Shown here piece after piece: positions 1 through 17,689 of a stretch of DNA of 20,373 bases. Position numbers and translations under genes: made by a program. The notes under the pieces were generated by a model. The model was not told the origin of the DNA, did not search any database, and saw only the letters and a program-made list of their open reading frames with translations. The DNA lies in IMG/VR virus record IMGVR_UViG_3300030451_001131, positions 1-20,373 of that record; one strand, written 5' to 3'. The stretch is from a virus. Positions within the stretch are counted from its first letter, which is position 1, and the number at the start of each line of letters is the position of its first letter.

Positions 1-3000
1 ACCGTCAATGTCACAACCAGATCCACCCAAGAAGGAGATTAGGGAGGAGTTCTGGATGTAAGGTGATGCCTCAATAACGGGCAAATCTAAGAAAGCATTT
101 AATAGTGGGAAGGTATACTTGGATGCATCCTGTTCTACAATAAGAGGATCAGGATTCGTTACAGTTCCACTGTATAGAGATGCACTAGAAAGAACGTTAT
201 CTAATATACCCCAGTTTGTAGTTAATGCAGATACAACATTAGCACACTCAGGTGCAGATGGGTCTACTGTAATAGAACCATTAGAAATAGGAGTAATCTG
301 TGAGAAGAAACCTGGTTCTAAATCATTTCTAATTGCTTTAATGCAAAGTTCTTTAGCGTAAGCAAATATTGCACGAGTATAATCTACTTCTTCAGTAACG
401 TGTGCTATAGCACCACTAGAGATGTATAAGTTTGCAGCTTCTACAATCTTAGAGTTACCACCATAACGTAAGTCATACTGGAATGCTCTAACGATATGAA
501 GAATATCATCAAGACATTGTTGATCTCCTGCAGATACTGTTCTTGTTACAGAATTTAAGTTTCCATATGAACCATCAGTACCTAATGCAGTAGTTACTAT
601 AGTGAATAGAGTATCAATTGCAGAAACTACGTTAGCACATGTCGGATTAGTTGCAGCTGTATCTGTTGCATGTGCAAGACTATCAGTTCCAATTGCTACT
701 TCAACTATAGAGAATAAAGTATCAATAGATGATTTAACTGCAGCACATCCACCAGGATCTACAGTAATTGTTAAATCTTTTGTTTGATTTAATCCATGCC
801 AACCTCTTACGTTAACAGTTTCATTAGCACAAACTTGTTGAGAAATATCACTTGCAAGTTCAAAGACTGCTCTTGCTTGGAACTCCTCACCATCTACATG
901 AGTAGTACCAACAAAGTAACCTGCATGATCATAAACTGCATCATTACCACCATGAGCAATATTATATGCAACAGCTCTCAATACATCAGAAGCATCATCC
1001 TTACAATTATCATTATGACCAGGAATTGCAAAACCAGGATCATTGATTGGATCAGTTGATCTAGGATATGCCTTAGTACTTCCATCTCCATGTGTACAAC
1101 TTAACTGTAATGATTCTCTAGAAATTTTGACTGTAGAAGTTGCGTAACTAATGGCATCAGCAACAGCACTCTGATAAGTGTGAGGTGTTGTATTGGTTGA
1201 AGGAATAGTATCCAATACTAATACATCAAATGTATTAGTAGTTACATTAGCAATCGTAATCCACTTGTTAGCAATTGGATCTGTTGAACGAGGATATGCG
1301 GTTGTTCCACCACCACTATGAGTACAACTAAAGCTTATAGCACCAACATCAAACTTAACTTTATCACCAGCACTAAATCCATGATTGTTAATGGTGACAG
1401 TCATAATACCCGTTGAAGGATTATATGCACCACCAGTTGCTGTATGTGTTGTTGGAGCAGTAAATGTATTTGCACCAACAGTCAATGTCAATGCACCTGT
1501 AGTTGCATTGTAAGATCCTGCAGAAGGAATGTAATTATTAATAGTAGATGCAGTTGCCCTCTTAACACCGTTTGTAGTAGCAGATGCAAATGTATGTGCA
1601 TAGTTACCACCCTGTGTAACTGAGTTATTAAGAGCAGAATCAAATACGTGTGTTGTTGTATTGGATGACTTACCAACATCAAGAGTAATTGTAGTACCAG
1701 TTACTGATTGTACAGTGACTGCGGTATCATAAGATCTGTCACGTTTTTGTTTGATACCATTAGCAATTGCAGATACAAATGTATGAGCATCAGTATTTGT
1801 AGAAGGTTGAGTTTCTAGAACTTGTATTGTAAAGTTTGTAGTATCAACAACAGTTACTTTTTGCCATTTACCAGCAATAAAGTCAGAAGAACGTGGATAA
1901 GTCTTAGTTGATGGTGTACCACCATATGCACAACTGAATGATATGCTATCGTTGTCAAACTTAACCCAATCACCATTTCTCATTCCATGAGCTGCAGTAG
2001 TGGTGATATTCATAATACCCGTTGTTGGGTTGTATGTTGTACCAGTTGTTGCAGTATGAGTATCAATAGTTGCACGAGGATATGCATGTTGTGTTGCTTG
2101 ACTATCCTCATCACACTTGAATGTTATTGCACCTTGTGCAAGTTTGATTGATGTGTTGGCAGTAATTGTATGGTTACCAATAGTTAATTCCATCAATCCT
2201 GTAACAGGATCGTAAGTTGCACCTGAAGGTGTGTAAGTTACTGGTAAAGTAGTACCAACGTTTACAGTGAATGTATTTGTAGTTACATTACCTACACTTA
2301 ACCAACTATTAGATACTGGATCTGTTGACCTTGGATATGTGTGTAGTGAGAATTGATTATCCATCTCACATCTAAAGGTCAATGAATTATTTGCTATCTG
2401 AATTTTTTCTCCAGCAGTAAATCCATGATTATTGATGGTTACTGTCAATACACCTGTAGCAGGTTCATATGCTGCTCCAGTTACTGTGTGTTGTGTAAAT
2501 CCAACATCATTATAAACTATTGCTCTTTCAACTGCATTAGCAATAGCACTAGACCATGTATGTGCAGTTATGTTAGAAGATACTCCTACCTGAACACGAA
2601 TTTGATTAGCATCTAATACCTGAACACCAATCCATTTGTTATACCATGGATCAGTAACACGAGGATATGATTTGATAGATGCACCACTATCTTGTGCACA
2701 TGTAAACTTAATTGATTCTGGAGCAAACTTAACTCTATCACCATCAACAAATGGATGACCTGCAATGGTCAAATCCATATATCCAGTAATAGGATTATAT
2801 GAACCTCCAGTTGGTTGGAATTGATATGTTGAAGTTCCTTGGAAGGTATGAGCAGTTGTATTAGTAGGTGTTGTACCGTTTAATGCATTGATTGTAATAT
2901 CATTACCTGATACTGCGTCAATAGGAACATCAGTTAGACTAGAGATATAACGTTCTACTGCTTCAGCTGCAATGAATGAATTGTTTTTGTTAAGTAAATT

Positions 3001-6000
3001 AGCAGCATCAGCAACACTATTATTAACTACGTTATCTAAAGTTGTTAACTCATAATGTTGAGGATGAGTACTATGAGGATGTCTAAGAATTGGTAAGTTA
3101 CGTATAACTTTAGAAGCATAACCTTTTGCATAGTTAAATGCTTCTACATACTTACTTTGATTACTTGTAGTTACTTGTGTAATGAAGTAATTAGCAGCAT
3201 CATAAACTCTATCATTACCACCCCATTTTAAGTTGTGATAAACAGATTTTTCAAGGAAGTCTTTAATATCATCAGTACAATTTTGTGTTCCACCTGTTAC
3301 TGTATATGATGGGTTTGCAGCAAGCATTCTCTTAACTGCAACCTCAGCAATCATTTCAGCATTTGCAGCAAGTGCATCTGCAGCATCAGCTTGCTTATTA
3401 TTATATGGGAAAGTATTTGGAGTTCTAAATGGTTTTCTTATATCTTCAAAAGTACCATCTGTTCCAGTTGCACTTCCAATAGAATTGATACCAATATTAA
3501 GAACAAAAGTTCTGTTATCAAGAACATCATCAATAGCCCATGTACCATTGATTCCTGATGTGCTACTACCTGCTATTACAACACCAGCAGAGACACCTAC
3601 GTTTGCTGTAATTGTTGTTGGACTTACAGAAGTAATTGGGATTGCGGTGTTATATGCAGGATCAGTTGATCTTGGATATGAATGACTAGTTGTATAATTA
3701 TCTTTACTGCACTTAAATGCCAATTTACCAGCACCAATAGTTACAGTATCTGAAGTTGTGAATGAGTGAGACCCAATGGTCATTACCAATTCACCTGTAA
3801 CAGCATCATAAGTTGCTGTAGTTACATCTTTCTGTACACTACCAGCAGTAATTGTAATTGCATTAGTTACTGTACCACCAGTATATTGGTGAACATGATT
3901 TCTAAATCCTGGTTGAATATTATGTCCAGTATTAACTTTAACTGTAAGTTTGCCAGCACCAAAACTCCATTCAGTAATTGGTGTAGCAACTACATCTGCT
4001 ACAGCATTAAATGTAGTGGGTCCTATTACTAAATTGCTAGATCTAGTAGCAGAATTTTCATGATATGATTTAACATATCCATATGCTTCCTCTGCAATAA
4101 ATTCTTGGTTATTTCTAATTGATTCAGCACCATCTCTATAACGATCTGTTTGAGAGATCTTAGTAAATCCATAAGGAGAGTTTCTTAGTGATGCTAGAAC
4201 GTAGTTGTTAGATGCAATAACTGATTGGTCACCAGTTGGATTTAAAGTAGCATTAACATTACTAAACTCACCTCTGACAACAAACTGAGTAGAGTAACCA
4301 TCAGCACGTTCAATACGATGAGTAACATACTTACGTCCATTTAGATCTGAAGTATTATCTAAGATACTAACAGTTGATCCAGTTGCAGTTGCAGTATTTG
4401 TTGTAGACTGAATATCTGCTGTTTTAAGTACAAAAGTAATAGTAGTGTTTGAACTATTGTACCTAGCATGACCCATACCTAAGGCAGTATTGGTTGGTAG
4501 TGTTGGAGTTCCAGATCCTAAAGAGAAATTAGCAATATGATATGTCTTACTTAATGCTTCTGATCCAGTTCCACTAAAGTTAAATTTAAGACCACATTCC
4601 CCAAGAGTTATCCAGTTACCAAATAATGCAGTAGTTAAACCATTGTCTGCAGTGCTTATAGTAACAGTAACTTCACCAGATGATAAAGACCAAGAAGTAT
4701 TAGTAGAAGAACCAAAATTAATTGCAGAACTTTGGAAACCATAGAGGATAATTTCTTGACCAACTTCATAGTCATGGAACCCAGTTGCAGTGGTATTAAT
4801 AATAGGACCACTATAGGTAGCTTGAGTTGCTAGTGAGGTGTCTATAGTTGTTACAGAGAACAACTTAGTTGCAAGATCAAATCTATGATATCCACTACCA
4901 GATGTGGTAAATGTTAGAGTTACAGGATCATCAGTAACACCATCAGCAGCTTTCTGAACAGCGTTAGCAGCAGATGCTGCAAGTCTTATCCAGTTAGCAT
5001 TTTCAACATAAACGTAGTAAGTAGTTCCATCAGTAAGTCCACTGATTCCACCCATCTTACTTGAACGATATATTACACCATCCCCAGTTTTAAATCCATG
5101 AGTATCAATAAAGATATTGTTACTCTCTGGCATAATTTTACCAGTGCTAAACTTATGAAGTTTAGTATCTGTAGATACTGTTGTTATATCTTTTCTACCT
5201 GTTGTTGAAGTAGTTGAAGTAGCGTTTGGCCAAGTATCAAAAAGTTGAATAGTATTAGCATCAACCTTCCTCACATAGTACGCTGTACTGTCGATTAAAC
5301 CGCCTAGAGCAACAGTGTTTTCATCTTTCTGATAGTAGACCTGGTCCCCTGTTTTAAGTGTATGTGCAGTAATTGTAATACTATCTGTAGTCAAATTGAC
5401 CTTAGTGGAATCAGCAGGGAAAGCAACTGTTTCTCTCTCAGCATTAATAGTATGCTGATAAATCTGGTTAGAGATTGTCTCTAATTCTGGTCTTAATGAT
5501 TCAGCATCTGATACGTCAAATCTATCAGACACACCTGCATTATTAATGTCAGTAATAATATTTGCTGCTACAGCATCATAGAATACTTTTTCAGCGTCTT
5601 GGAATACATCATTAACACCTGAGGTAATAAGTATTTCAACACTACCAGTTGAGTATGGTGATGCTTGAGGACCTGTGAAATTAATAGTTTGAATTGTACC
5701 AAGTGTACCTGAAGATCCACCTTGTACAAAGTAACCAGTTTGTAGAGTTGTATTGTTACCTGTGTGGTTAGTAAAGGTAATTTTAAATAAGTTATCACCA
5801 CGGAATTTATCACCAGGTATAGATGGGATTTGTCCCAATTCTGGTTCGTAGTAAAGTCTTTGTTTGTCATCAAACACAAACGCATACTTCCAAGTATGAA
5901 TTACTGAACTCTGTGGGTCTGATGGGTTTTGTAGTGCATCTCTGAATACAACACCAAACACATACGTCTCGTTAGACGCTTTGATCATGTGACGATCACG

Positions 6001-6948
6001 ATTTTGTGGTCTAACAATTACACGACGTAAGTTGTCACCAATTAGTGAACAGTTTCTAGGAAGTGAAATTGGGTTGTCTTCTAGATACTCACCACCAGAT
6101 ACGATCAGTGAAACGTATTCATCACTAGGATCTGGGACTGCTTTCTGTAAAGTGTAAGCAATTTGTGCTGCTTTTTTAATAGTTTTAACTGGTCTTGCAG
6201 CTGAACGACCATCGTTAGCATCATTACCAATAGTTTGTGATACGTAAACACGACCACCAGTGTCATTAGTAGCAACTTGATATACAAAATCAGTGGTAGC
6301 AATTCTTCTTGACTGATCAGTTAGAGGAGGAGTGTCAGCAGTTGGATAGAATGTAGTACCAAAAGTAGGACTTGTAACGTCTGTATCTTCAAAGTTTATT
6401 AAATTAGGAGCACGAAGAGCAAGTGCAGGGTTGATAATAGTATCAATATCAAGGTTTGTAACCTGTGCAGTATCAGAAATGATAGAACGAGTTGTTCTAA
6501 TCTGACCTTCTACATCGAGTTCATACTGAGGATCGTTAGTATTAACACCAACACGAATATTATTTGCCTGATTCTGATTTAAAACTAAGGCATCTTTTTC
6601 ATTAGCACCTGTACCTACAGCTAATTCAATAGATTCATCACCTTGAAGTTGTAAAGAACGTACCTTTCTATATGCAAGAGTATTACCTGCAGTAATTACA
6701 CCTAAATTTGAACTACTAAAACTTAAAGTATCATCATCTACCTTCGCAACCGTGTAAATTCCATCAGTCTCACCTCCAGTTAAAAAGTCAATATAAAGTT
6801 TTTCATTGCCTATAAAACCATGGGCAACAGAAACTATATTGACAACTCCTGCAGCTGTTCGACTATACGTTGCGTTTATCCAAGCACCTGTGGGTTTTAC
6901 ACCAGAAGCCTCAATTCTCTGTTGTTGGGAATTAAACTTAAGACTCAT
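1..6948 (-). CDS. Giant modular virion structural protein / tail fibre (partial, 3' end outside window)
   Basis: I read every codon from the ATG at 6946-6948 to base 1 and found no stop, so at least 2316 residues are encoded and the gene continues past the left edge. The start follows AAGGA (6956-6960) with 7 nt spacing; this ribosome site overlaps the stop of the 177-aa gene. The N-terminus (MSLKFNSQQQRIEASG) leads to an HGF-type module (His42), then a pectate-lyase-like beta-helix segment at residues 231-361 (GGRVYVSQ, GNDANDGRSA, GGEYLEDNP, SLIGDNLRR, AFVFDD). The middle holds many repeats: HGF/GDxV modules (His529, His617), three helical FIAEEA-like motifs (about 950, 1199, 1325), three GGN helical motifs (1242, 2000, 2163) and seven YPRxxDP modules (1091-1967). 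The last visible residues (LPVIEASPYIQ, FLGGSGCDIDG, 2290-2316) again look like the beta-helix of cyanophage fibre-like proteins. Probable role: very large host-contact or baseplate-attached fibre. Family recognition is from memory; receptor and exact location are unknown. Confidence 0.93.
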   Translation of the reverse strand, partial: MSLKFNSQQQRIEASGVKPTGAWINATYSRTAAGVVNIVSVAHGFIGNEKLYIDFLTGGETDGIYTVAKVDDDTLSFSSSNLGVITAGNTLAYRKVRSLQLQGDESIELAVGTGANEKDALVLNQNQANNIRVGVNTNDPQYELDVEGQIRTTRSIISDTAQVTNLDIDTIINPALALRAPNLINFEDTDVTSPTFGTTFYPTADTPPLTDQSRRIATTDFVYQVATNDTGGRVYVSQTIGNDANDGRSAARPVKTIKKAAQIAYTLQKAVPDPSDEYVSLIVSGGEYLEDNPISLPRNCSLIGDNLRRVIVRPQNRDRHMIKASNETYVFGVVFRDALQNPSDPQSSVIHTWKYAFVFDDKQRLYYEPELGQIPSIPGDKFRGDNLFKITFTNHTGNNTTLQTGYFVQGGSSGTLGTIQTINFTGPQASPYSTGSVEILITSGVNDVFQDAEKVFYDAVAANIITDINNAGVSDRFDVSDAESLRPELETISNQIYQHTINAERETVAFPADSTKVNLTTDSITITAHTLKTGDQVYYQKDENTVALGGLIDSTAYYVRKVDANTIQLFDTWPNATSTTSTTGRKDITTVSTDTKLHKFSTGKIMPESNNIFIDTHGFKTGDGVIYRSSKMGGISGLTDGTTYYVYVENANWIRLAASAANAVQKAADGVTDDPVTLTFTTSGSGYHRFDLATKLFSVTTIDTSLATQATYSGPIINTTATGFHDYEVGQEIILYGFQSSAINFGSSTNTSWSLSSGEVTVTISTADNGLTTALFGNWITLGECGLKFNFSGTGSEALSKTYHIANFSLGSGTPTLPTNTALGMGHARYNSSNTTITFVLKTADIQSTTNTATATGSTVSILDNTSDLNGRKYVTHRIERADGYSTQFVVRGEFSNVNATLNPTGDQSVIASNNYVLASLRNSPYGFTKISQTDRYRDGAESIRNNQEFIAEEAYGYVKSYHENSATRSSNLVIGPTTFNAVADVVATPITEWSFGAGKLTVKVNTGHNIQPGFRNHVHQYTGGTVTNAITITAGSVQKDVTTATYDAVTGELVMTIGSHSFTTSDTVTIGAGKLAFKCSKDNYTTSHSYPRSTDPAYNTAIPITSVSPTTITANVGVSAGVVIAGSSTSGINGTWAIDDVLDNRTFVLNIGINSIGSATGTDGTFEDIRKPFRTPNTFPYNNKQADAADALAANAEMIAEVAVKRMLAANPSYTVTGGTQNCTDDIKDFLEKSVYHNLKWGGNDRVYDAANYFITQVTTSNQSKYVEAFNYAKGYASKVIRNLPILRHPHSTHPQHYELTTLDNVVNNSVADAANLLNKNNSFIAAEAVERYISSLTDVPIDAVSGNDITINALNGTTPTNTTAHTFQGTSTYQFQPTGGSYNPITGYMDLTIAGHPFVDGDRVKFAPESIKFTCAQDSGASIKSYPRVTDPWYNKWIGVQVLDANQIRVQVGVSSNITAHTWSSAIANAVERAIVYNDVGFTQHTVTGAAYEPATGVLTVTINNHGFTAGEKIQIANNSLTFRCEMDNQFSLHTYPRSTDPVSNSWLSVGNVTTNTFTVNVGTTLPVTYTPSGATYDPVTGLMELTIGNHTITANTSIKLAQGAITFKCDEDSQATQHAYPRATIDTHTATTGTTYNPTTGIMNITTTAAHGMRNGDWVKFDNDSISFSCAYGGTPSTKTYPRSSDFIAGKWQKVTVVDTTNFTIQVLETQPSTNTDAHTFVSAIANGIKQKRDRSYDTAVTVQSVTGTTITLDVGKSSNTTTHVFDSALNNSVTQGGNYAHTFASATTNGVKRATASTINNYIPSAGSYNATTGALTLTVGANTFTAPTTHTATGGAYNPSTGIMTVTINNHGFSAGDKVKFDVGAISFSCTHSGGGTTAYPRSTDPIANKWITIANVTTNTFDVLVLDTIPSTNTTPHTYQSAVADAISYATSTVKISRESLQLSCTHGDGSTKAYPRSTDPINDPGFAIPGHNDNCKDDASDVLRAVAYNIAHGGNDAVYDHAGYFVGTTHVDGEEFQARAVFELASDISQQVCANETVNVRGWHGLNQTKDLTITVDPGGCAAVKSSIDTLFSIVEVAIGTDSLAHATDTAATNPTCANVVSAIDTLFTIVTTALGTDGSYGNLNSVTRTVSAGDQQCLDDILHIVRAFQYDLRYGGNSKIVEAANLYISSGAIAHVTEEVDYTRAIFAYAKELCIKAIRNDLEPGFFSQITPISNGSITVDPSAPECANVVSALTTNWGILDNVLSSASLYSGTVTNPDPLIVEQDASKYTFPLLNAFLDLPVIEASPYIQNSSLISFLGGSGCDIDG
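930..3835 (-). repeat. Seven divergent YPRxxDP modules in the left giant protein
   Basis: A module recurs with the pattern YxPxTGxMxxTIxxHxF, GDxVxF, SFxC, YPRxxDP, WxxVxxV, TFxVxV. Its YPR element starts at residues 1091, 1428, 1538, 1623, 1684, 1885 and 1961 (bases about 3678, 2667, 2337, 2082, 1899, 1296 and 1068). Spacing is irregular (61 to 337 residues), and the copies at 1623 and 1961 are degenerate or incomplete, so this is diverged module duplication and not a simple tandem repeat. At the DNA level the YPRSTDP codons give near-identical 20-mers on the plus strand, for example around 1048-1068 and 3658-3678. The module is probably a small beta domain lining the fibre. Confidence 0.85.
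5866..6258 (-). other. First half of pectate-lyase-like beta-helix domain in the left giant protein
   Basis: Residues about 231-361 of the left giant protein. The string GRVYVSQTIGNDANDGRSA, followed by RPVKTIKKAAQIA and GGEYLEDNPISLP, is the opening of the right-handed beta-helix found in many phage tailspikes and cyanophage structural proteins. SLIGDNLRR and IVRPQ are typical turn and strand elements. AFVFDD and RLYYEPELG follow before the repeats begin. Relatives I recall continue the helix soon after this point; here similar sequence only reappears near residue 2290. Confidence 0.75.
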
Positions 6949-6955
6949 TTACCAA

Positions 6956-6960
6956 TCCTT
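6956..6960 (-). promoter_or_regulatory. Ribosome binding site of the left giant gene
   Basis: AAGGA lies 7 nt upstream of the ATG at 6948 and overlaps the TAA of the 177-aa gene. It is the clearest Shine-Dalgarno site in the window, and it supports the chosen start. Confidence 0.8.
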
Positions 6961-7492
6961 ACGATACGAGTGTGATATCTACTAATCCAACCCACTTAAC
7001 TGTGGAACTGGATGTTACTGATTTAACTTCAAAAGTGAAATATGGGGATCCTCCAATTTGAATAGCGTCTGGAGTAACACTCCAATCTTCTTGTCCTGGT
7101 GGATTCGCAGCAATAATATTTTCATATGCAGCAGCTACAGTGGGAACCCCTGTTGCTGATACGGTAACAACTATATCAAATGTAGTAGCATACACATAAG
7201 TATTAGTTGTTGTTTCTTGACCAAATACTCTTGCCTTTACAAAAGCAACTCTATCTGCAGCAAGTGCAGGTGTGTTAGTTGCCAAGGCAGTAGTACCATC
7301 TAATGTTAACTGCAATGTATTATTAGCAGCGTCGGTCTGTCTTTTAAGAATATAGATGTCATGGTTCGCATCAGTGAAATTATCACTAGTCATATGCATA
7401 GATGATATGTTCTTAAGCTCGTAACTTGTGTTAAGAACTTCTTTAGAACCTACAGCGTATCCACCGACTGATGAGAAATTTTTGGTTGGCAT
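6959..7492 (-). CDS. Small virion structural protein (177 aa), late expressed
   Basis: A complete 177-residue protein starting MPTKNFSSVGGYAVG. It resembles small conserved cyanophage structural proteins that begin KNFSSVGGY and end in a KWxxxVxIxxVS-type strand (here VKWVGLVDITLVS). It has no signal peptide, membrane segment or catalytic motif, and the composition (Thr, Ala, Val-rich) suggests a beta protein. The ATG at 7490-7492 lies 22 bases downstream of a perfect T4 late promoter box. GAGG (7505-7508) sits 12 nt upstream of the start, a slightly long spacing. The stop TAA at 6959-6961 is 10 bases from the next start, so it heads a late unit with the left giant gene. A role in attaching or seating that fibre is inference from adjacency only. 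Confidence 0.9.
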   Translation of the reverse strand: MPTKNFSSVGGYAVGSKEVLNTSYELKNISSMHMTSDNFTDANHDIYILKRQTDAANNTLQLTLDGTTALATNTPALAADRVAFVKARVFGQETTTNTYVYATTFDIVVTVSATGVPTVAAAYENIIAANPPGQEDWSVTPDAIQIGGSPYFTFEVKSVTSSSTVKWVGLVDITLVS

Positions 7493-7513: not shown

Positions 7514-7521
7514 TATTTATA
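7514..7521 (-). promoter_or_regulatory. T4-type late promoter (TATAAATA) overlapping a stop codon
   Basis: The minus strand reads TATAAATA here, a perfect match to the T4 late promoter used by gp55-type sigma factors and also found in T4-like cyanophages (NATAAATA). The stop TAA of the 2505-aa gene (7517-7519) lies inside the box. Transcription would start about 5-7 bases downstream, leaving a very short leader before the ATG at 7492. It is in the correct orientation to drive the 177-aa gene and the left giant gene. Confidence 0.85.
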
Positions 7522-10500
7522 CCTTGACTTTAGTAGTTGTGAATCTACCAGTAAAGGTTGATGACGATGTTGCTTCAGATGATTTGTTCAAACTGATGTT
7601 AACATTGTTACCAACTACAGCAACTGTAGCGTCCATCAAATCATTATCTGAGGTGATTGAATTAGTCACTGTGTTGTGTGCTGTAGTTCCAGCTGCAGAG
7701 CATATGCTAGTCACTTCAAGCATATGTACTTTACCATCGTTACTTTCAATAGTAACAAGAGTTTTTGCACCCTTGTATGCTGTTTTATCAAACTGAATGA
7801 TAGTTGCATTTGATGCGAATGATGTTAATTCACCACCTTCAACACGACAATCATCAAGTTCTACAAAGTCAGCAGTAGAATCAAAGACTGTTAGATACGA
7901 TGTTGTACCACCGTTCCAACCTCTATTGATTTTCCATGCAGCCTCAGCAGCATTAGCATCTAAAGATATAAATTCTTTACTATCTAATTGAGTAACAAAA
8001 TCTTGTTGTAAAACATCAAGTCTTGATCTGGCAGTAACTGTGTTAGTGATTGCAGTAACTGGGAATGATATATCATGTGTAGGTGTTGATCCTCCAATTA
8101 AGTTACCAGCTATTGTAATAACTTCCTGTTCTTCATAATTAGAACCACCTGCAACTTTGACTACTGAAGCAATATTTCCACTACCATCACTAGTTACTGT
8201 AAATGTAGCACCAACACCCTCAAATTGACCAGTAGATGATACAGCACTGTATGTTTGTGATGTTCCATAATTACCTGGTACAGAAGTTATGGTTCCGATT
8301 GTATCAACAGCACCTTGAACTGGAACTCCTCTAAGTCTAAAACCACTAGAAATTTCAATATCTTTTTTGGATCTAACCTGTAAGATACTTGCTCCAGAGA
8401 AAGTAACTGCAAGTGGATCACCTGCTGCAGTACCATTAAATGTTGCAGTTCCTGCAACGTCAAATGTCTTAGCAGTTCTAAGTGTAAACTTAGTTTGACT
8501 GAGTGATATGGAGTTAACACCTTGGTTAAAGAACTCAAATGTATCTTCGTCTGCACCTGGTGCTGATTCGGTCAACACATAAGTATCTTGGTCAACGTCT
8601 CTAACACCACCAAGAGAAACAAAATCACTTCCGTTATAACCCTCAAACTGTAATTGAGTTGTGTTATATCTGATAGCACCTGCTCTGCGGTTATCAGCAA
8701 CTGGACGTTGGTTTGTAGTACCTGCAGGAACTACGAATGATCCAGTTGTGTCACAAAGAATATCTTTACCTGCACCTGGTTTTAATACTACACCTGTACC
8801 ATCTATATCAGTAACAGTAATAGTTCTTCCAGTTCCACCACCAGCTGCAGTAATTGTAAGTGTTTCGCCAATTCTATAATTCTGACCTTTCGCAACAATA
8901 GTTACAGCAGAGAAATCCCCAGACGCTACTGTGACTGTTACAGTACACCCAGTACCATCTCCAGATGAAGTAGTTGCTGTTGCTGTGTATGTTCCGTCTG
9001 TATATCCAGATCCAACTCCTGTAACTGATACTGCAAGTATTTCACCAAAGGATTTAACTCCTAGAGTACTATTATTAGCAATAACATTATCTCTTACACG
9101 TAAAAGACCTGCATCAAGATTACCTGAGAATGTAGCGTCACCAGTAGCGGTATCAATTTTAAATACCTCAGTTCCACCAGCAGCATCTAAGATATTAAAG
9201 TCTTGATCTGTTCCACCAATAATAGTAAAGTTACCTTGCCCTTTTGGTGAAACTTTAAGATCAACATTAAGATCTGTACCAACAGTTTCAATTAATCCAT
9301 CATTATTAATTTTTATCTGCGTTTCTGGAGCACCAATTGTTACTGATTCATTAGTAGCATCTACTTTTAAGAAAGGATTTAGAGTAGCAACATCACTATC
9401 TACTTGGAAATCTAATGTTTGTAATGTAGCAGTAGGTCCGACATATCCTTTTTGTACACCTGATACAGTTAATCCAATTGAATTAGCACCAGCTCTGAAG
9501 TATCCAGTTTGAGTATTAGATGCAAGTTTAAATGATGGTGCAGTTGCAGTTCCATCTGCTAGAGAAATTGTTGCAGAAGAAATAATACTGTTTCCACTGG
9601 TAGTTAAATCAGTAATTGATGCAGAAGTCTGAACATTAAGAGTTGCAGAAGATAATGCTCCAGTAGTACTAATAGTTCCACCTGAGGTGATACCACCTGT
9701 GACGCTAATCGAACCAGAACCGTTTATATTTTTGAATGTTGTATTACCATCTTTATCAATAGCCCATAACTGAGATGTAGCAGAACCATCATACCCAAGT
9801 TCAATTGGAGTAATATCAGAAACAGTAGCAACTTGAATTGCAATTGCTGTACCAGTAGTTTCTAGTTTTAATGGTGGTGTGTCTATTAATAATAAAGTAT
9901 CATTAGCAAAGAAACCAAAACCTGCTTCAGCTACAACAACGCTATCAAGATAACCTGCTTTAGTTACTGTATATTGGAAACCAGATCCATTTCCTGCAGT
10001 ATCAAAGGAAGGATCCGCAGTTAGAACATCACCTACTGAATAAGGTCCTCCTGTTGTAGAGATATTAGTTACACTTGAAACTGAACGATCGTCTGCGTTT
10101 ATTGTAAATGAAACACCAGAACCAGCATTACCCAACTCGGAGATATCTGCTGTTACTACGTCAGTTGCTTTATATCCTGTACCTTGATTAGTAAATGTCC
10201 AACTAGTTGCTGTTCCTGCAGCTCCAACAACAACAGTTGCTGTAGCACCATATCCAAATACTCCTTGACTTCCAACACCAGTAGATACTGTAAAGTTATT
10301 ACCACTTTGAGGTACAGAACCATATTGAATAGTATCTGCAGATGTCCATGTAGATTTAACTACTAGATATCCCACTGCATTAGCTTGACCTGGTACCCCA
10401 ACCTGTTCAAATTCAAGTGCTGAGGGATTAGATGATGTAATAGAGAATGATTTACCATCCATACTAGAATCGGATAAATCAAAGTTATATGAGTTGTAAC

Positions 10501-13500
10501 TTAATACTGCTGTTGCAGGTGATTCAGTTCCACCAATAAAGAAGACAGATTCAGTTGATTCTGCTGCAGTGGATGTAGCAGTTGTTGCTGACGTAGTAAG
10601 AGTTTCATTGATCTGGAAAGGACCGCTAGTGACAGTTGCGATACGTAAGAAATTTTCTCCAAGGAAACTGATAGTACCACTAGCACCACTTGTTCCACCA
10701 GTAACTGTTTGTCCAACACTGAAGGTTGCTCCACTATATGCAGAAACTACAATAGTTCCACCCATCGCTGCGTGGTTTGCACAGACATAGTAATAGGTAC
10801 CAGGTTCAGTATTTGTAAGATCCCAAATAATATCTCCAGTTGTAGCACCATTATTTGTTACACCATCAGTTGTTCCAAGTACTTCGGAAGCTTGATATGC
10901 ACCAGATACCTTTTGAATCCATAATGGATGACTGCTTGCAGTAGCAGTCATGGTTAATGTAAGTTTATCTCCCTTCTCAACAGCAAAAGAAATATCATCT
11001 CCAGATGCTGTTCCTACAGAAGATGTTCTTGTAAATGTGTAGTCAGTATTAGATCCACCAGTAGTAGAAACTTCATATGCTTGATCATCACTATCAGAAT
11101 ATCTGAATGGGATATATGCTCTATCAGCGTTAGTTACTGCAAAAGTGCTTGTTGGATTATTTCTAACTTTTATATTATTATAATTTGATTCTGTGTATCC
11201 AGAACCAGCAGTTAGTGTACCTGTAAGACCAATAACGGTAAGAGTTGCAGTTGCCTGAGTAATTACACCACCACCAAGTAAAGAAATTCCTGTGTATGTA
11301 CCAGGTACATAACCAGATCCACCATTGGTAATAGTACCTGTTAAAGGTAAAACTTTTAAATCTAATTTTGCATCTGAACCTGCACCACCTAGTAGAGTAA
11401 GTGTTGGTGTAGTAGTATATCCTTCACCTCCACCTGTGACAGTGATACCAGTTATAGTACCAGATTTTTTATTGAATGTTGGGGTAAGTTGTGCATCTGT
11501 TGTTGGATTACCACCATCAATTTTAATTGTAGGTAAGATAGAATATCCTCTACCTGGATTTGTGACAGTAACTGAATCAATCGCATATCCCAGAACTGCA
11601 GTACCTACAGCACCAGTTCCTGTTGAGTCACCTGTAGAGTTGTTAACTGTTACTGCAGGAGTGCTAGTAAATCCACTACCAATTGCACCTATTGCAAATG
11701 CCTCAAGTCTATATCCAAGATTTGCTTGAATATCTCCAGCAGATCCACCACTATCAGTGATAGTTACGATTGGCGTTGCACTATATCCATTACCTGCATC
11801 TGTAATTGTTGGTGTTTGTAATTCTCCACCAGACTGTGTGACAGTAGCAGTTGCTGTCTTACCTGTAATGGTGTGAACTTCAGAAGAACCACCTGCAGTT
11901 AGGTTGATTACTGCTCCACCTGATGTTGCACCTAATTTAATTGTGTCCGTAGTAGAAGCAACAACAAAATAAGTAGTTCCACTTGTTAAACCAATATTGA
12001 TTGATCCACCACCATTACCATATACTACTTCATCACCTACAACAAATGGATGAGCTGCTAAAGTAATAGCATCAGTTGCTGAGTTGACAGCACTTATAAT
12101 GTCAAATGAATTGTCGTTAGGTGCAGCAATTGTAAGTGTTGGACTAACATATCCAGTACCAGTCCCACTGACTGTCAATCCTACAACTTTACCTGAATTA
12201 GTTTTTAGTGTCGCAGTTGCAGTTGCTTCAGTTCCACCTCCACCAGGTGCTGCAATTACTACATCAGGAGGGGCAGTATATCCAGAACCAGGATTAGTTA
12301 ATGTAATACTGTTTATAGTACCTCCAGATACAAGTGTTGCAGTTGCTGTAGCAACATTATTTGGGTTACTAACTGCAGTAAATTGCTGTTCAAAACCTGC
12401 ATATTCACTTCCTTCAGAAACAATATTTACAGTGGCAATTCCTAAACTGAATACTGTAAGGTTTTTATTTGTGAAAAGACCGTAGCTAGAGAAACCAGCT
12501 TGCTCATTACCTTCAACTCTAAATGATAAACTACCATCAACAGTACTATCAATACTTGTATATTTGTTAGCGTCAAAGTAAAGTTTTTCTGGAGAGATAA
12601 TCTCTGCATTTAATGTAATATCTTCATTGGATGCAGGGTCAACAATGATAGCACCAGAAGTAGAACTTAAAGTATTACCAGAAAGTCTTAAATTACCTGT
12701 CTGAACATATGCAGGATAGATGTTAGTAGTACCAGTAGCATCTGATAGAGTGATGCTTGCAGCAGTTGATGTTGTAGACTGTGAAGTGAAATTAACTGTT
12801 CCAGTTCTTTGGTTAACAGTAAGAGCAGAACCTATTCTATAATCACCTTCTTGGTCAACTGATTCGTAGTAAACTTTACCATCATTAAGTTCTTCTACTT
12901 CATTTGCTTGTACTGCTAGATCAGGATCATTAGTAGAGTCTTTACCAGATCCAACATACTGGAAACTATGTCCAGTTAGATTTACTATAGTACCTCTACC
13001 ATCAGAAGTAACACCCTTTACACCATATACACTTGAACATCCTGATGCATGTACCTCAGCACCAAACTGTGAATAGTCAGCAGTGGCAACAGAACTTGCT
13101 GAGTCTCCACCATTAGAACGAATATCTTTAATTCCTTTACCACTATTAGTTGTAGCTGTAGTAGCATCGTCGCCATTGAAATGATACAATACTACAGTGT
13201 TAAGATCAGATGAATACTCACCTGTTGTTGGTGTAAAGTTACCAGTAAAACGACCTGAACCTTTACTAATTCTTATTTCATCAATATGACCTGCAAATCC
13301 ATTTGCACCAGAGTTATAATCTCCACCAATAATTAACGGTTTTGTAGAACCATAGTCATTAGCATCTGTATAAGTAGAACCTACCTGAGTTCCATCAAGG
13401 AATAATTTTGTGCTACCACCAAACCTTGCTACTGCAACGTGATACCATGTACCAGTTGATAAAGTACCACCATTTGCTTGCGATGTATTTCCTACTTTAT

Positions 13501-15034
13501 AATGTAAGGTAGTACCATCTAAGTAAAGAACGGGTGCTGTATCTGTGGTAGATCCACTTCTTAGATCTATAATAGTTTGGGTTCCAGATACACTAGAAGG
13601 ACGTATGAATGCTTCTATACAGAAGTTAGTAGTACCTAGACCAAGATCTGCATCTGTTGGTACATTAAGATAGTCGCCAGTACCATCAAGTAATAGTGAT
13701 GCTGATCCAAATTTCTTTTGAGCAGTATCTAATTGTGCGTCACCGTTAGTAACTGCTGCTACAGGAGTTGCAACACCTGTAGAAAATAATCCTGTTCCTT
13801 TACCATTAAGGAAAATGTATGTACCATCATTAGAATCAACGGTACCATATGCTTCTGCTTTCTTATAAGTTACGTTACCTGTAGTTGATCCCGATGCTGC
13901 ATCAGCGAATGTAAAACTGTTAGCATCTACAACAGTAACTGCATAATAGTTATCGGAAGCACTACCAGTGATAGCGTCTGCATATATGACATCAGCAGTT
14001 GTCAGTCCGTGGTTGGTATTCGTGACTGTAACAGTGTTTCCTGTTCTAGAATATGTACCAGATTTAAAGGTATCTTCTAGTTGATATATTATTTCAGAAG
14101 ATGCGAAAGTACCAGAGACACCATTTAATTTTAAACGTGCTTTACCAGTACCATATACACCAGTCGCCCCTTCAAGAGTTTTGATGCTGTTACTATTGAA
14201 ATAGAAATAGCAATCAGCCATTTCCACTCTCATTCCATTAGTAGCAGTAATACCTATATTATTAGGTGTAATAAATGTACATTCATTAAAGACAAATCCA
14301 AGTGTGCCTGTAGAAGAACTCCAAAGTGCACCATCTAAGTATGCACCACCACCTGCCTTGTTAGTTCCAGTAGCGTCGTATCCATAAGGATCAGATGCAC
14401 TGGTAGGACTTCCTTTTGGGAAGAAAGTACATCTCTCAACAACAGGAACTTGTGTATTATTTGTATTGCTTGCTACCGTAATTCCGTATTTTGGTGACTT
14501 CCACCCTCTTAATTGTAAGTCAGAGACCCTAGTATCACCTTCTAGCACCAACAGATGTTCGTCTTCTGAAGCTGCTGTATTCTCTATTATTGTTGTTCTT
14601 TGATCAGATCCTTTAATACTGACATTATCTGGCACTGTTAAAGGAGCAGTTTCCTGATAAACACCAGGTGATATAACAATTTGATCTCCAGCCTGAGCAA
14701 CAGTCAATGCTTTAGCAACAGTTAGAAACGCAGTATCTTGATGTTTACCACCAGCACCACCATTTCCTAACGTAGTAGTATCGGCACCATTTTTTGCGAC
14801 ATACCAAATATTGCCAGGACCATTAGTAATGTCCGTAGCAAGCATTGAGGTTGTAACCTCACCCGTATTGGGTTTCTGGTTAGCAATCTCAACAATCGTG
14901 CCAGCATTGTTTACATAAAGTTTTCTATCAGCAATATTAAGAGCGACTTCACCATCGGTGATATTAGAAGTCGTCGGTACTACTGTCGCTGTCGTCGATC
15001 TCTTTAGTTTGATTCTCGTCGGTTCGGCTGCCAT
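7517..15034 (-). CDS. Giant tail fibre / adhesin with LamG-like, GxGY-repeat and cupredoxin-like domains (2505 aa)
   Basis: Start MAAEPTRIKLKRST at 15034, preceded by a weak GAG with 10 nt spacing; the N-terminus (residues 1-53, IKLKRST, DGEVALNIADRKLY) resembles the Mtd N-terminal domain used by phage fibres for attachment. Residues 75-290 look like a beta-helix (FLTVAKAL, GDQIVISPGVYQE, SIKGSDQRTTIIEN). Residues 336-392 form an NHGL module. Residues 430-625 are LamG-like. Residues 895-1290 hold the main GxGY repeat block, with further copies near 1616, 1703, 2006 and 2048. Residues 1340-1432 are cupredoxin-like. The C-terminal part (GSFVVPAGT, QRPVADNRRAGAIRYNT, DVDQDTYV, then FVELDDCRVEGGE) matches conserved ends of cyanophage structural proteins. 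No protease or enzyme active site was seen. It most likely forms a long tail fibre contacting the host surface. It is unusually long and overlaps the upstream coiled-coil gene by 71 bases. Confidence 0.95.
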   Translation of the reverse strand: MAAEPTRIKLKRSTTATVVPTTSNITDGEVALNIADRKLYVNNAGTIVEIANQKPNTGEVTTSMLATDITNGPGNIWYVAKNGADTTTLGNGGAGGKHQDTAFLTVAKALTVAQAGDQIVISPGVYQETAPLTVPDNVSIKGSDQRTTIIENTAASEDEHLLVLEGDTRVSDLQLRGWKSPKYGITVASNTNNTQVPVVERCTFFPKGSPTSASDPYGYDATGTNKAGGGAYLDGALWSSSTGTLGFVFNECTFITPNNIGITATNGMRVEMADCYFYFNSNSIKTLEGATGVYGTGKARLKLNGVSGTFASSEIIYQLEDTFKSGTYSRTGNTVTVTNTNHGLTTADVIYADAITGSASDNYYAVTVVDANSFTFADAASGSTTGNVTYKKAEAYGTVDSNDGTYIFLNGKGTGLFSTGVATPVAAVTNGDAQLDTAQKKFGSASLLLDGTGDYLNVPTDADLGLGTTNFCIEAFIRPSSVSGTQTIIDLRSGSTTDTAPVLYLDGTTLHYKVGNTSQANGGTLSTGTWYHVAVARFGGSTKLFLDGTQVGSTYTDANDYGSTKPLIIGGDYNSGANGFAGHIDEIRISKGSGRFTGNFTPTTGEYSSDLNTVVLYHFNGDDATTATTNSGKGIKDIRSNGGDSASSVATADYSQFGAEVHASGCSSVYGVKGVTSDGRGTIVNLTGHSFQYVGSGKDSTNDPDLAVQANEVEELNDGKVYYESVDQEGDYRIGSALTVNQRTGTVNFTSQSTTSTAASITLSDATGTTNIYPAYVQTGNLRLSGNTLSSTSGAIIVDPASNEDITLNAEIISPEKLYFDANKYTSIDSTVDGSLSFRVEGNEQAGFSSYGLFTNKNLTVFSLGIATVNIVSEGSEYAGFEQQFTAVSNPNNVATATATLVSGGTINSITLTNPGSGYTAPPDVVIAAPGGGGTEATATATLKTNSGKVVGLTVSGTGTGYVSPTLTIAAPNDNSFDIISAVNSATDAITLAAHPFVVGDEVVYGNGGGSINIGLTSGTTYFVVASTTDTIKLGATSGGAVINLTAGGSSEVHTITGKTATATVTQSGGELQTPTITDAGNGYSATPIVTITDSGGSAGDIQANLGYRLEAFAIGAIGSGFTSTPAVTVNNSTGDSTGTGAVGTAVLGYAIDSVTVTNPGRGYSILPTIKIDGGNPTTDAQLTPTFNKKSGTITGITVTGGGEGYTTTPTLTLLGGAGSDAKLDLKVLPLTGTITNGGSGYVPGTYTGISLLGGGVITQATATLTVIGLTGTLTAGSGYTESNYNNIKVRNNPTSTFAVTNADRAYIPFRYSDSDDQAYEVSTTGGSNTDYTFTRTSSVGTASGDDISFAVEKGDKLTLTMTATASSHPLWIQKVSGAYQASEVLGTTDGVTNNGATTGDIIWDLTNTEPGTYYYVCANHAAMGGTIVVSAYSGATFSVGQTVTGGTSGASGTISFLGENFLRIATVTSGPFQINETLTTSATTATSTAAESTESVFFIGGTESPATAVLSYNSYNFDLSDSSMDGKSFSITSSNPSALEFEQVGVPGQANAVGYLVVKSTWTSADTIQYGSVPQSGNNFTVSTGVGSQGVFGYGATATVVVGAAGTATSWTFTNQGTGYKATDVVTADISELGNAGSGVSFTINADDRSVSSVTNISTTGGPYSVGDVLTADPSFDTAGNGSGFQYTVTKAGYLDSVVVAEAGFGFFANDTLLLIDTPPLKLETTGTAIAIQVATVSDITPIELGYDGSATSQLWAIDKDGNTTFKNINGSGSISVTGGITSGGTISTTGALSSATLNVQTSASITDLTTSGNSIISSATISLADGTATAPSFKLASNTQTGYFRAGANSIGLTVSGVQKGYVGPTATLQTLDFQVDSDVATLNPFLKVDATNESVTIGAPETQIKINNDGLIETVGTDLNVDLKVSPKGQGNFTIIGGTDQDFNILDAAGGTEVFKIDTATGDATFSGNLDAGLLRVRDNVIANNSTLGVKSFGEILAVSVTGVGSGYTDGTYTATATTSSGDGTGCTVTVTVASGDFSAVTIVAKGQNYRIGETLTITAAGGGTGRTITVTDIDGTGVVLKPGAGKDILCDTTGSFVVPAGTTNQRPVADNRRAGAIRYNTTQLQFEGYNGSDFVSLGGVRDVDQDTYVLTESAPGADEDTFEFFNQGVNSISLSQTKFTLRTAKTFDVAGTATFNGTAAGDPLAVTFSGASILQVRSKKDIEISSGFRLRGVPVQGAVDTIGTITSVPGNYGTSQTYSAVSSTGQFEGVGATFTVTSDGSGNIASVVKVAGGSNYEEQEVITIAGNLIGGSTPTHDISFPVTAITNTVTARSRLDVLQQDFVTQLDSKEFISLDANAAEAAWKINRGWNGGTTSYLTVFDSTADFVELDDCRVEGGELTSFASNATIIQFDKTAYKGAKTLVTIESNDGKVHMLEVTSICSAAGTTAHNTVTNSITSDNDLMDATVAVVGNNVNISLNKSSEATSSSTFTGRFTTTKVKV
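10739..11017 (-). other. Cupredoxin-like (type-I copper) domain inside the 2505-aa fibre
   Basis: Residues about 1340-1432. The domain has FAVEKGDKLTLTM (1350-1362), SSHPLWIQ with His1369, a GVTNNGATTGDIIWDL segment and GTYYYVCANHAAMGG with Cys1418, His1421 and Met1424. The Cys-x2-His-x2-Met ligand loop plus an upstream His is the type-I copper set of amicyanin-like cupredoxins, followed by the final strand TIVV. All four ligands are present, so copper binding is plausible but unproven. It lies between the GxGY repeats and the rest of the fibre. Confidence 0.82.
11165..12352 (-). repeat. GxGY beta repeats in the 2505-aa fibre
   Basis: A short unit of the form (V/L)TxxGxGYxxxPxVxI recurs about eight times at residues 895-1290. 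Examples are NPGSGYTAPPDVVI (914-927), GTGTGYVSPTLTI, DAGNGYSATPIVTI, IGSGFTSTPAVTV, NPGRGYSILPTIKI, GGEGYTTTPTLTL, GGSGYVPGTYTGI and AGSGYTESNYNNI. It is interrupted by an AHPF/GDEVVY module around 979-1056. More distant copies occur near 1616, 1703, 2006, 2048 and 2295. The copies differ strongly in DNA sequence, so they are old duplications. They probably form a stacked beta rod. Confidence 0.85.
13160..13747 (-). other. LamG / concanavalin A-like lectin domain in the 2505-aa fibre
   Basis: Residues about 430-625. The order of signature strands fits the laminin-G type 3 jelly roll: FGSASLLLDGTGDYL (442-456), FCIEAFIRP (471-479), GTWYHVAVAR (528-537), KLFLDGTQVG (543-552), IDEIRISKG (584-592) and VVLYHFNGDD (614-623). 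Such domains usually bind carbohydrate, often with calcium. In a fibre this suggests recognition of host lipopolysaccharide or capsule, which is inference. Confidence 0.88.
14165..14812 (-). other. Predicted beta-helix domain in the 2505-aa fibre
   Basis: Residues about 75-290. IWYVAKNGADTTTLGNGG is followed by FLTVAKALTVA, GDQIVISPGVYQETAPL and SIKGSDQRTTIIEN, the usual opening of pectate-lyase-like right-handed beta-helices in phage fibres. Later turns RCTFFP (201-206), ECTFI (251-255) and DCYFYFNSN (274-282) are typical of stacked coils. No catalytic residues can be assigned, so a binding or structural role is more likely than polysaccharide cleavage. Confidence 0.7.
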
Positions 15035-17464: not shown

Positions 17465-17689
17465 CTATTTATCCTCTTTCTGAACCAAAGTATTAACAAG
17501 TGCTTTAAGTTCCGCTACTTCATCTTTTAAAGTTGCCATTTCCGCTTCTTTCCTCTTTGCTTCTTTTCGAGCTTTTCTGTAAGCCTCATATGCAGTTACG
17601 TCAGTATTCAAAATTGCATTAGAATTTGGATCCCTGCCAAGTTGAGTATGTCCCTCGACAGGAATCAGTTCAATTACATCTTTTTCCAT
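17465..17689 (-). CDS. Small coiled-coil structural protein (74 aa)
   Basis: Residues 8-30 (LIPVEGHTQLGRDPNSNAIL) form a compact conserved-looking head; residues 33-71 are a highly charged helix (AYRKARKEAKRKEAEM, then LKDEVAELKALVNTLVQ) that predicts a coiled coil. Proteins with VEGHTxLGRDPNSxAIxN followed by a coiled coil occur next to structural genes in T4-like cyanophages. The ATG shares its A with the TAA of the upstream structural gene (TAATG at 17687-17691) and no strong ribosome site is visible, so translation is probably coupled. The stop lies within a late promoter box. The role is unknown; a scaffold or oligomerisation helper for the preceding structural protein is possible. Confidence 0.88.
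   Translation of the reverse strand: MEKDVIELIPVEGHTQLGRDPNSNAILNTDVTAYEAYRKARKEAKRKEAEMATLKDEVAELKALVNTLVQKEDK
17466..17473 (-). promoter_or_regulatory. T4-type late promoter (GATAAATA) overlapping a stop codon
   Basis: The minus strand reads GATAAATA, matching the cyanophage late consensus NATAAATA. Two bases of the TAG stop of the 74-aa coiled-coil gene (17465-17467) fall inside the box. A start 5-7 bases downstream gives a leader of about 25 bases before the ATG at 17435. It would drive the 112-aa, 73-aa and 558-aa genes and probably read on into the giant fibre gene. Confidence 0.75.

Follow-up and report, generated by a model that had tools for sequence, protein, structure and literature searches.

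A tail-fibre-like cyanophage protein with a predicted beta-helix interrupted at one loop by a long modular insert that includes phycobiliprotein-like modules

Background

The closest described relatives of the protein analysed here are the tail fiber proteins of the cyanophages P-HM1, P-HM2 and MED4-213 (earlier 'YapH', PHROG 5342). They are orthologues, encoded in the same gene order and having the same interrupted helix, with an insert of 1,512-1,620 residues against 1,929 in the present sequence by the same measure. The predicted fold of the joined flanks resembles that of tailspikes and polysaccharide lyases built on a right-handed beta-helix, represented by the K. pneumoniae K1 capsule lyase (7w1d) and LKA1 gp49 (4ru4), and that of the glycoside hydrolase BT_1002 (5mqp), none of which, to our knowledge, carries such a modular insert at this loop.

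Phycobiliproteins (PF00502), chiefly CpcA and CpcB, have fold, sequence and the bilin-attachment Cys and Asp columns in common with helical modules predicted within the insert; the modules of the present sequence differ in lying within a giant virion protein and in having Asp in place of the Arg of C-x-R-D. The same helical modules occur, in other genes, in the 'short tail fiber' T4-GC734, whose gene is near cpeT in several phages, and in the gp7-like wedge protein. A literature search, in which few subscription papers were covered, found no description of phycobiliprotein-like domains in cyanophage virions. The function of phage bilin genes has been called a mystery (PMC3037559), and what a phage gains from pebS is still treated as an open question (PMC13198022).

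The sequence analysed, called the window, is the whole 20,373-base stretch of IMG/VR record IMGVR_UViG_3300030451_001131, a metagenome contig of a Prochlorococcus-type virus. The evidence collected below makes it highly probable that its leftmost gene encodes a cyanophage tail-fibre-like protein with one beta-helix and a modular loop insert, subject to module gain and exchange and including phycobiliprotein-like modules.

Results

The giant gene and its neighbourhood

The gene and its upstream neighbours were located as follows.

1..6948, minus strand: putative giant virion (tail-fibre-like) gene, truncated, residues 1-2316
6268..6948, minus strand: N-terminal region, residues 1-227
6959..7492, minus strand: upstream neighbour, a conserved virion protein of 177 aa, assigned in P-HM2 and S-PM2 to the T4-GC512 family
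7517..15034, minus strand: upstream neighbour of 2,505 aa, annotated in P-HM2 as baseplate wedge subunit (gp7)

The reading frame starts with an ATG at 6948 and runs off the left edge at position 1, its 2,316 codons being free of stops up to the contig end, as the original prediction (at least 2316 codons) had stated. Full-length relatives of this subtype with a similar insert measure about 4,190-4,213 aa. On the minus strand the order is a structural gene truncated by the right edge (17689-20373), a 558-aa protein, the 2,505-aa gp7-like protein, the 177-aa protein and the giant gene. This order is common to the window, P-HM1, P-HM2 and MED4-213, with a 'tail fiber' orthologue in each phage (3,677 aa in P-HM2, 3,763 aa in MED4-213), and the giant gene of the window likewise comes after the genes for the gp7-like wedge protein and the T4-GC512 protein. 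The protein matches PHROG 5342 (tail fiber protein, T4-GC513) with 1281 bits; the P-HM2 tail fiber covers 67% of the window query at 62% identity, indicating a full-length relationship, and over residues 1-361, which comprise the N-terminal region and the start of the helix, identity to P-HM1, P-HM2 and MED4-213 reaches 82-83%.

In T4, the corresponding position is occupied by the genes for the baseplate pin, the short fibres and the whiskers. By this analogy, the protein would most likely be part of a spike or fibre joined to the particle near its baseplate.

In the gp7-like neighbour (7517-15034), residues 450-591 match the concanavalin-like domain Laminin_G_3 (E 2e-20), and residues 1349-1430 match the plastocyanin-like family Copper-bind below threshold. 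Residues 24-98 of the giant protein (6655-6879) resemble a stretch of this neighbour (13850-14065) with 33% identity (E 6e-8), and represent a further predicted module common to the two genes.

Two flanks of one predicted beta-helix

Helix coordinates were taken from the near-identical contig L006 by using three HMMs built on the family (S0, S1 and S2). Insert borders were obtained from the same HMMs and from the gaps of relatives.

6145..6267, minus strand: S0, cap or first coil of the beta-helix, residues 228-268
5866..6111, minus strand: S1, first part of the beta-helix, residues 280-361 (GEYLEDNPI ... YAFVFDD)
88..5865, minus strand: site 2 insert, residues 362-2287, 1,926 residues
1..87, minus strand: S2, where the beta-helix resumes, residues 2288-2316, truncated at the contig end

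These borders closely match the original prediction, which placed the start of a beta-helix at residues 231-361 and its return at 2290-2316. S2 is intact in L006 (residues 2288-2424), in L008 and in P-HM2. The position of the insert is fixed, between '...YAFVFDD' and '...ASPYIQN'.

The distance between the flanks was measured in two ways. In the first, every retrieved ORF was searched for segment A (201-372) and segment B (2256-2316), giving a gap of 18-21 residues in one group of relatives and of 437-3,152 in all the rest, with 1,929 in the window. In the second, based on the family HMMs and a broader sampling, the S1-S2 gap ranged either from about -2 to 31 or from 313 to 3,149 residues; two values, 71 and 94, fall outside both ranges. 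The relatives with neighbouring segments named in the original prediction thus exist, by the dozen, and the two segments are not always far apart. In alignments of the empty site, GEYLEDNPI...YAVAFDD is followed by a short loop and then by SPYIQNCSIISFLGG...TNSATNFGTYALR. The uninterrupted stretch was found in one place in at least 33 phage records; among the rows listed, P-SSM2, S-PRM1 and S-CAM9 have it with 92-96% covered.

The window protein is too long to be folded whole, and AlphaFold2 was applied to L065, a natural relative with a 432-residue insert, whose S1 and S2 regions are clearly homologous to those of the window. In the resulting model (pLDDT 77.4, pTM 0.74) the flanks correspond to about residues 46-167 and 596-724. 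Solved helices were aligned along both: 5mqp_A with 205 residues over 50..719 (Z 16.6), 7w1d_H with 192 residues over 34..714 (Z 16.3) and 4ru4_B with 185 residues over 50..713 (Z 15.2). Because the aligned residues exceed what either flank holds, both L065 flanks belong to one helix, a continuity read off the aligned ranges and lengths rather than off per-residue correspondences. Residues 228-361 and 2288 onward are accordingly predicted, via this relative, to be one right-handed, pectate-lyase-like beta-helix domain.

That the two segments are instead independent domains, with nothing interrupted, could be argued from the fact that each half scores alone with its own HMM. This reading is already contradicted, and very improbable, since relatives with an empty site have the halves joined directly at the same point and single solved helices span both halves of the L065 model. 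Equally, the window being a metagenome contig and the region repetitive, the long insert might be an artefact of repeat-driven misassembly. This is scarcely credible: the same architecture is present in the isolated phages P-HM1, P-HM2, MED4-213, S-PM2, Syn1 and S-RSM4, and in L006, an independent IMG/VR contig, the gene extends to 2,685 residues, with a 99% match to the window over residues 1005-1725 and a gap of the same length.

Contents of the insert and their variation

Repeats other than the helical modules were mapped within the insert by module matches or, for the first entry, by windowed self-BLAST.

4879..5403, minus strand: imperfect repeat pair, residues about 516-600 and 604-690 (E about 1e-8)
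3595..3828, minus strand: beta module (MB) copy 1, residues 1041-1118
1816..2817, minus strand: MB copies 2-5, residues 1378-1455, 1488-1565, 1573-1634 and 1632-1711
997..1443, minus strand: MB copies 6-7, residues 1836-1912 and 1917-1984

The recurring beta modules are 78 residues long, and self-similarity within the insert reaches E = 4e-28 in windowed self-BLAST, far beyond chance. A figure of about 1900 residues of repeats had been proposed. As a description of the whole insert it is overstated, because residues 362-1030 are not chiefly copies of the beta and helical repeat families; the stretch rich in repeats is 1031-2287.

Comparison of close relatives suggests that the size of the insert shifts quickly. 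L069 and L072 are 95.8% identical outside gaps, and L072 is longer by 420 residues, equal to four beta modules. Between L157 and L159 (98.9% identity) a single 77-residue block differs, inside a helical module. L138 contains one clean block of 1,787 residues lacking in L137; most of its 19 MB matches fall within this block. Modules are also found elsewhere. Helical modules are carried at site 2 by 138 proteins, at a second site (site 1, see below) by 34 and C-terminal of the helix by 30, in addition to other ORFs. Modules of the P-HM2 fibre score no lower against modules of short-tail-fibre and gp7-like proteins than against their own siblings (for example 66 vs 52 bits), and one module of L065 is 47% identical to one in the P-HM2 gp7-like protein. 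Taken together, the differences between close relatives and the matches across genes form a pattern that would call for both duplication and exchange among virion genes. Growth by repeated module gain, as originally proposed, is thereby sustained, through whole-module differences in close relatives and modules common to other virion genes; that the insert forms a long projection is plausible.

Helical modules resembling phycobiliproteins

Three helical modules were recognized in the window by module matches; at the first there is also a PF00502 match, at residues 1180-1232.

3097..3381, minus strand: helical module 1, residues 1190-1284, Cys1224 in C-T-D-D
823..1059, minus strand: helical module 2, residues 1964-2042, Cys1982 in C-K-D-D
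325..594, minus strand: helical module 3, residues 2119-2208, Cys2145 in C-L-D-D

The Pfam match in the window's protein (P0001) scores 25.8 bits against a cut-off of 22.2, single excised modules being weaker (best E 2.1e-4). The cut-off is also passed in 3 of 16 phage genomes, and matches lie in giant ORFs of S-RSM4, DSL-LC03, S-PM2, P-HM2 and Sf-CH11; among 14 control genomes Synechococcus elongatus alone gave a match. Profile A4, built for the module, was compared with PDB sequences and returned phycobiliproteins only (best E 3.9e-6), the match spanning mainly the first 55 or so module positions; over the CARDIGY stretch, viral aKCeRDigyivdA is aligned to CpcA AKCARDIGYYLRM. In structural comparisons, residues 390-570 of the L065 model match the globin-like fold of phycoerythrin and phycocyanin with Z 15-17 (up to 16.8), 129 residues being superposed at about 2 A in several rows, with a Foldseek E of 4e-4. 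A low-confidence model of the window's own module gave phycobiliproteins in all 50 rows listed (Z about 10-11.6), and the model of the window's own insert is likewise of low confidence (pTM 0.27).

In CpcA the bilin is held by Cys84, Arg86 and Asp87, which correspond to the motif columns C, R and D of the modules. Among 149 modules less than 60% identical, these columns are conserved at 92%, 79% and 95%, and most relatives retain the bilin-attachment motif K-C-x-R-D. In all three copies of the window the attachment Cys and the Asp are kept and Arg is changed to Asp; because this Arg is missing, these copies are named phycobiliprotein-like and not phycobiliproteins.

By sequence profile and modelled fold, the helical modules are distant homologues of phycobiliproteins. 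The alternative is convergence, a generic helical bundle in which C-x-R-D arose by chance: high structural scores come easily to helical folds, the sequence match is confined mainly to the first part of the module, the Arg is missing in the window, and no free-standing viral phycobiliprotein was seen. Convergence is nonetheless unlikely, as phycobiliproteins are the only hits obtained from sequence without structure, PF00502 passes its cut-off in the window and in the 3 phage genomes and, of the controls, in the cyanobacterium alone, the columns aligned to the bilin-site motif are among the most conserved of the module, and the modules detected in named phage records were all in cyanophages.

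A DNA pattern for K-C-x-R-D-x-G-Y-x-x-D-A detected 8 contigs, all from MAGs and all with giant phage-like module ORFs; no free cellular source of the module was found among them. Contigs L280-L287, which have giant module-bearing ORFs, are binned as Rhodobacteraceae, Proteobacteria, Planctomycetaceae and Lewinella MAGs; they are probably of viral origin and were misbinned or belong to viruses that infect other hosts. L214 (1-2132 aa) and L256 (2782-aa ORF) each contain 12 phycobiliprotein-like modules in a single ORF, mostly with C-x-R-D.

Two insertion loops

A second insertion loop, located from the gaps of relatives, lies one coil earlier, between S0 and S1.

6112..6144, minus strand: site 1, second insertion loop, unfilled in the window (11 residues, 269-279)

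In other relatives site 1 holds an insert of 146-1128 residues; in L078, L080, L170, DSL-LC03 and others it is filled and site 2 is empty. For 157 distinct proteins scorable at both sites, site 1 is empty and site 2 filled in 97, both are empty in 35, and site 1 is filled and site 2 empty in 25; both loops are filled in none of the 157. The nominal Fisher p of this exclusivity is 8e-13, relatedness being ignored. Neither the second loop nor the likeness to phycobiliproteins figured in the original prediction.

In a tree of the helix core, which has a distant root, long branches meeting at the outgroup and unsettled bootstrap, the 42 site-2 rows form two groups, one of 37, including the window's kin, and one of 5 located among site-1 rows. 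A single clade of site-2 rows is disfavoured (p-AU 0.013, moderate) and a single clade of site-1 rows is rejected (p-AU 3e-36). Given these groupings, repeated use of both loops is the better reading, the window's loop having probably been filled on two or more occasions and the other loop several times.

The long insert may alternatively be ancestral, the relatives with adjacent segments having lost it by deletion. Such a history would be compatible with the large in-frame length changes that occur, as between L157 and L159, and with a root resting on distant, long-branched outgroups. It is, however, quite unlikely. Almost every distant relative has an empty loop, and these include many short fibre proteins (450-1,500 residues); the 5-row site-2 group lies among relatives that have an insert at site 1 and none at site 2; and under parsimony a filled ancestor would require more events.

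Bilin genes of module-bearing phages

A further, doubtful hypothesis is that virion modules still bind bilins, made or attached by phage enzymes (HO1, PebS/PcyA, CpeT). Of 11 module-bearing genomes, 9 have the bilin-lyase-like gene cpeT, against none of 5 module-free genomes (Fisher p 0.005, uncorrected for phylogeny). A bilin reductase is encoded by P-HM1, P-HM2, MED4-213, P-SSM2 and ACG-2014j; in P-HM2 it occurs together with cpeT and with modules of the gp7-like protein having an intact K-C-x-R-D. In ACG-2014j (L270), S-RSM4 (L267), Syn1 (L268) and S-PM2 (L266), cpeT adjoins the module-bearing short-tail-fibre gene or is at most 4 genes away. This adjacency may be incidental, because tRNAs and small genes are abundant there as well.

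The S-type lyase is the enzyme expected for the Cys84 site. Its gene, CpeS, was found in none of the 11 module-bearing genomes and only in S-CBWM1, where no module was found, which argues against phage-encoded loading of a Cys84-type site. Modules are present in DSL-LC03 and B23, where neither cpeT nor cpeS nor a bilin reductase was found; P-SSM2 encodes a bilin reductase, and no module was found in it. From the alignment, the stacking residue beside the bilin pocket seems not to be kept in the modules.

Some additional features of these regions were noted. In ACG-2014e and Sf-CH11 cpeT is at a similar distance, 2 kb, from a module-bearing gene. In P-HM2 (L269, 2500-34500) it directly precedes a tail-fibre run (a YadA domain protein and two tail fiber proteins), in which no modules were found. 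The S-PM2 record annotates 16 tRNA genes within the giant fibre gene (L266 8057-12884; record 168556-173383). ARAGORN detected no tRNA inside this gene and nine just upstream, near cpeT, so that the annotated coordinates look wrong.

Discussion

The gene would encode a tail-fibre-like virion protein, in a conserved block between baseplate-wedge and neck genes. The chain would exit a right-handed beta-helix at one fixed loop, pass through a long string of independent modules and return to complete the helix; other lineages would use the second loop, one coil earlier, instead. Since the ends of the insert would be anchored at adjacent rungs, modules could be gained or lost in frame without upsetting the helix, and the insert could therefore grow and shrink by recombination between repeats and trade modules with giant virion genes. 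Close relatives and shared modules point to such growth, shrinkage and exchange. The dominant module types are the 78-residue beta modules and the helical modules homologous to phycobiliproteins; the latter were presumably acquired in the distant past from cyanobacteria that served as hosts and are today distributed over various virion proteins of cyanophages. Most likely, a tail spike or fibre bears the insert as a side arm, which may display domains contacting ligands or the host surface, or may set its reach; its modules would probably be adhesive or serve as spacers.

A helix loop thus accommodates insertions of as many as 3,149 residues; relatives in which the site is naturally empty exist, as does an alternative loop, so that the gain and loss of large arms by viral spikes could be studied directly in loop-filled and empty relatives. 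Many phycobiliprotein-like modules are borne by cyanophage virion proteins. Prochlorococcus hosts of the bilin-gene phages have no phycobilisomes; if virion modules did bind bilins, the bilin genes of these phages would serve the phage's own particle, and binding by any one module would give phage bilin genes a concrete, testable role.
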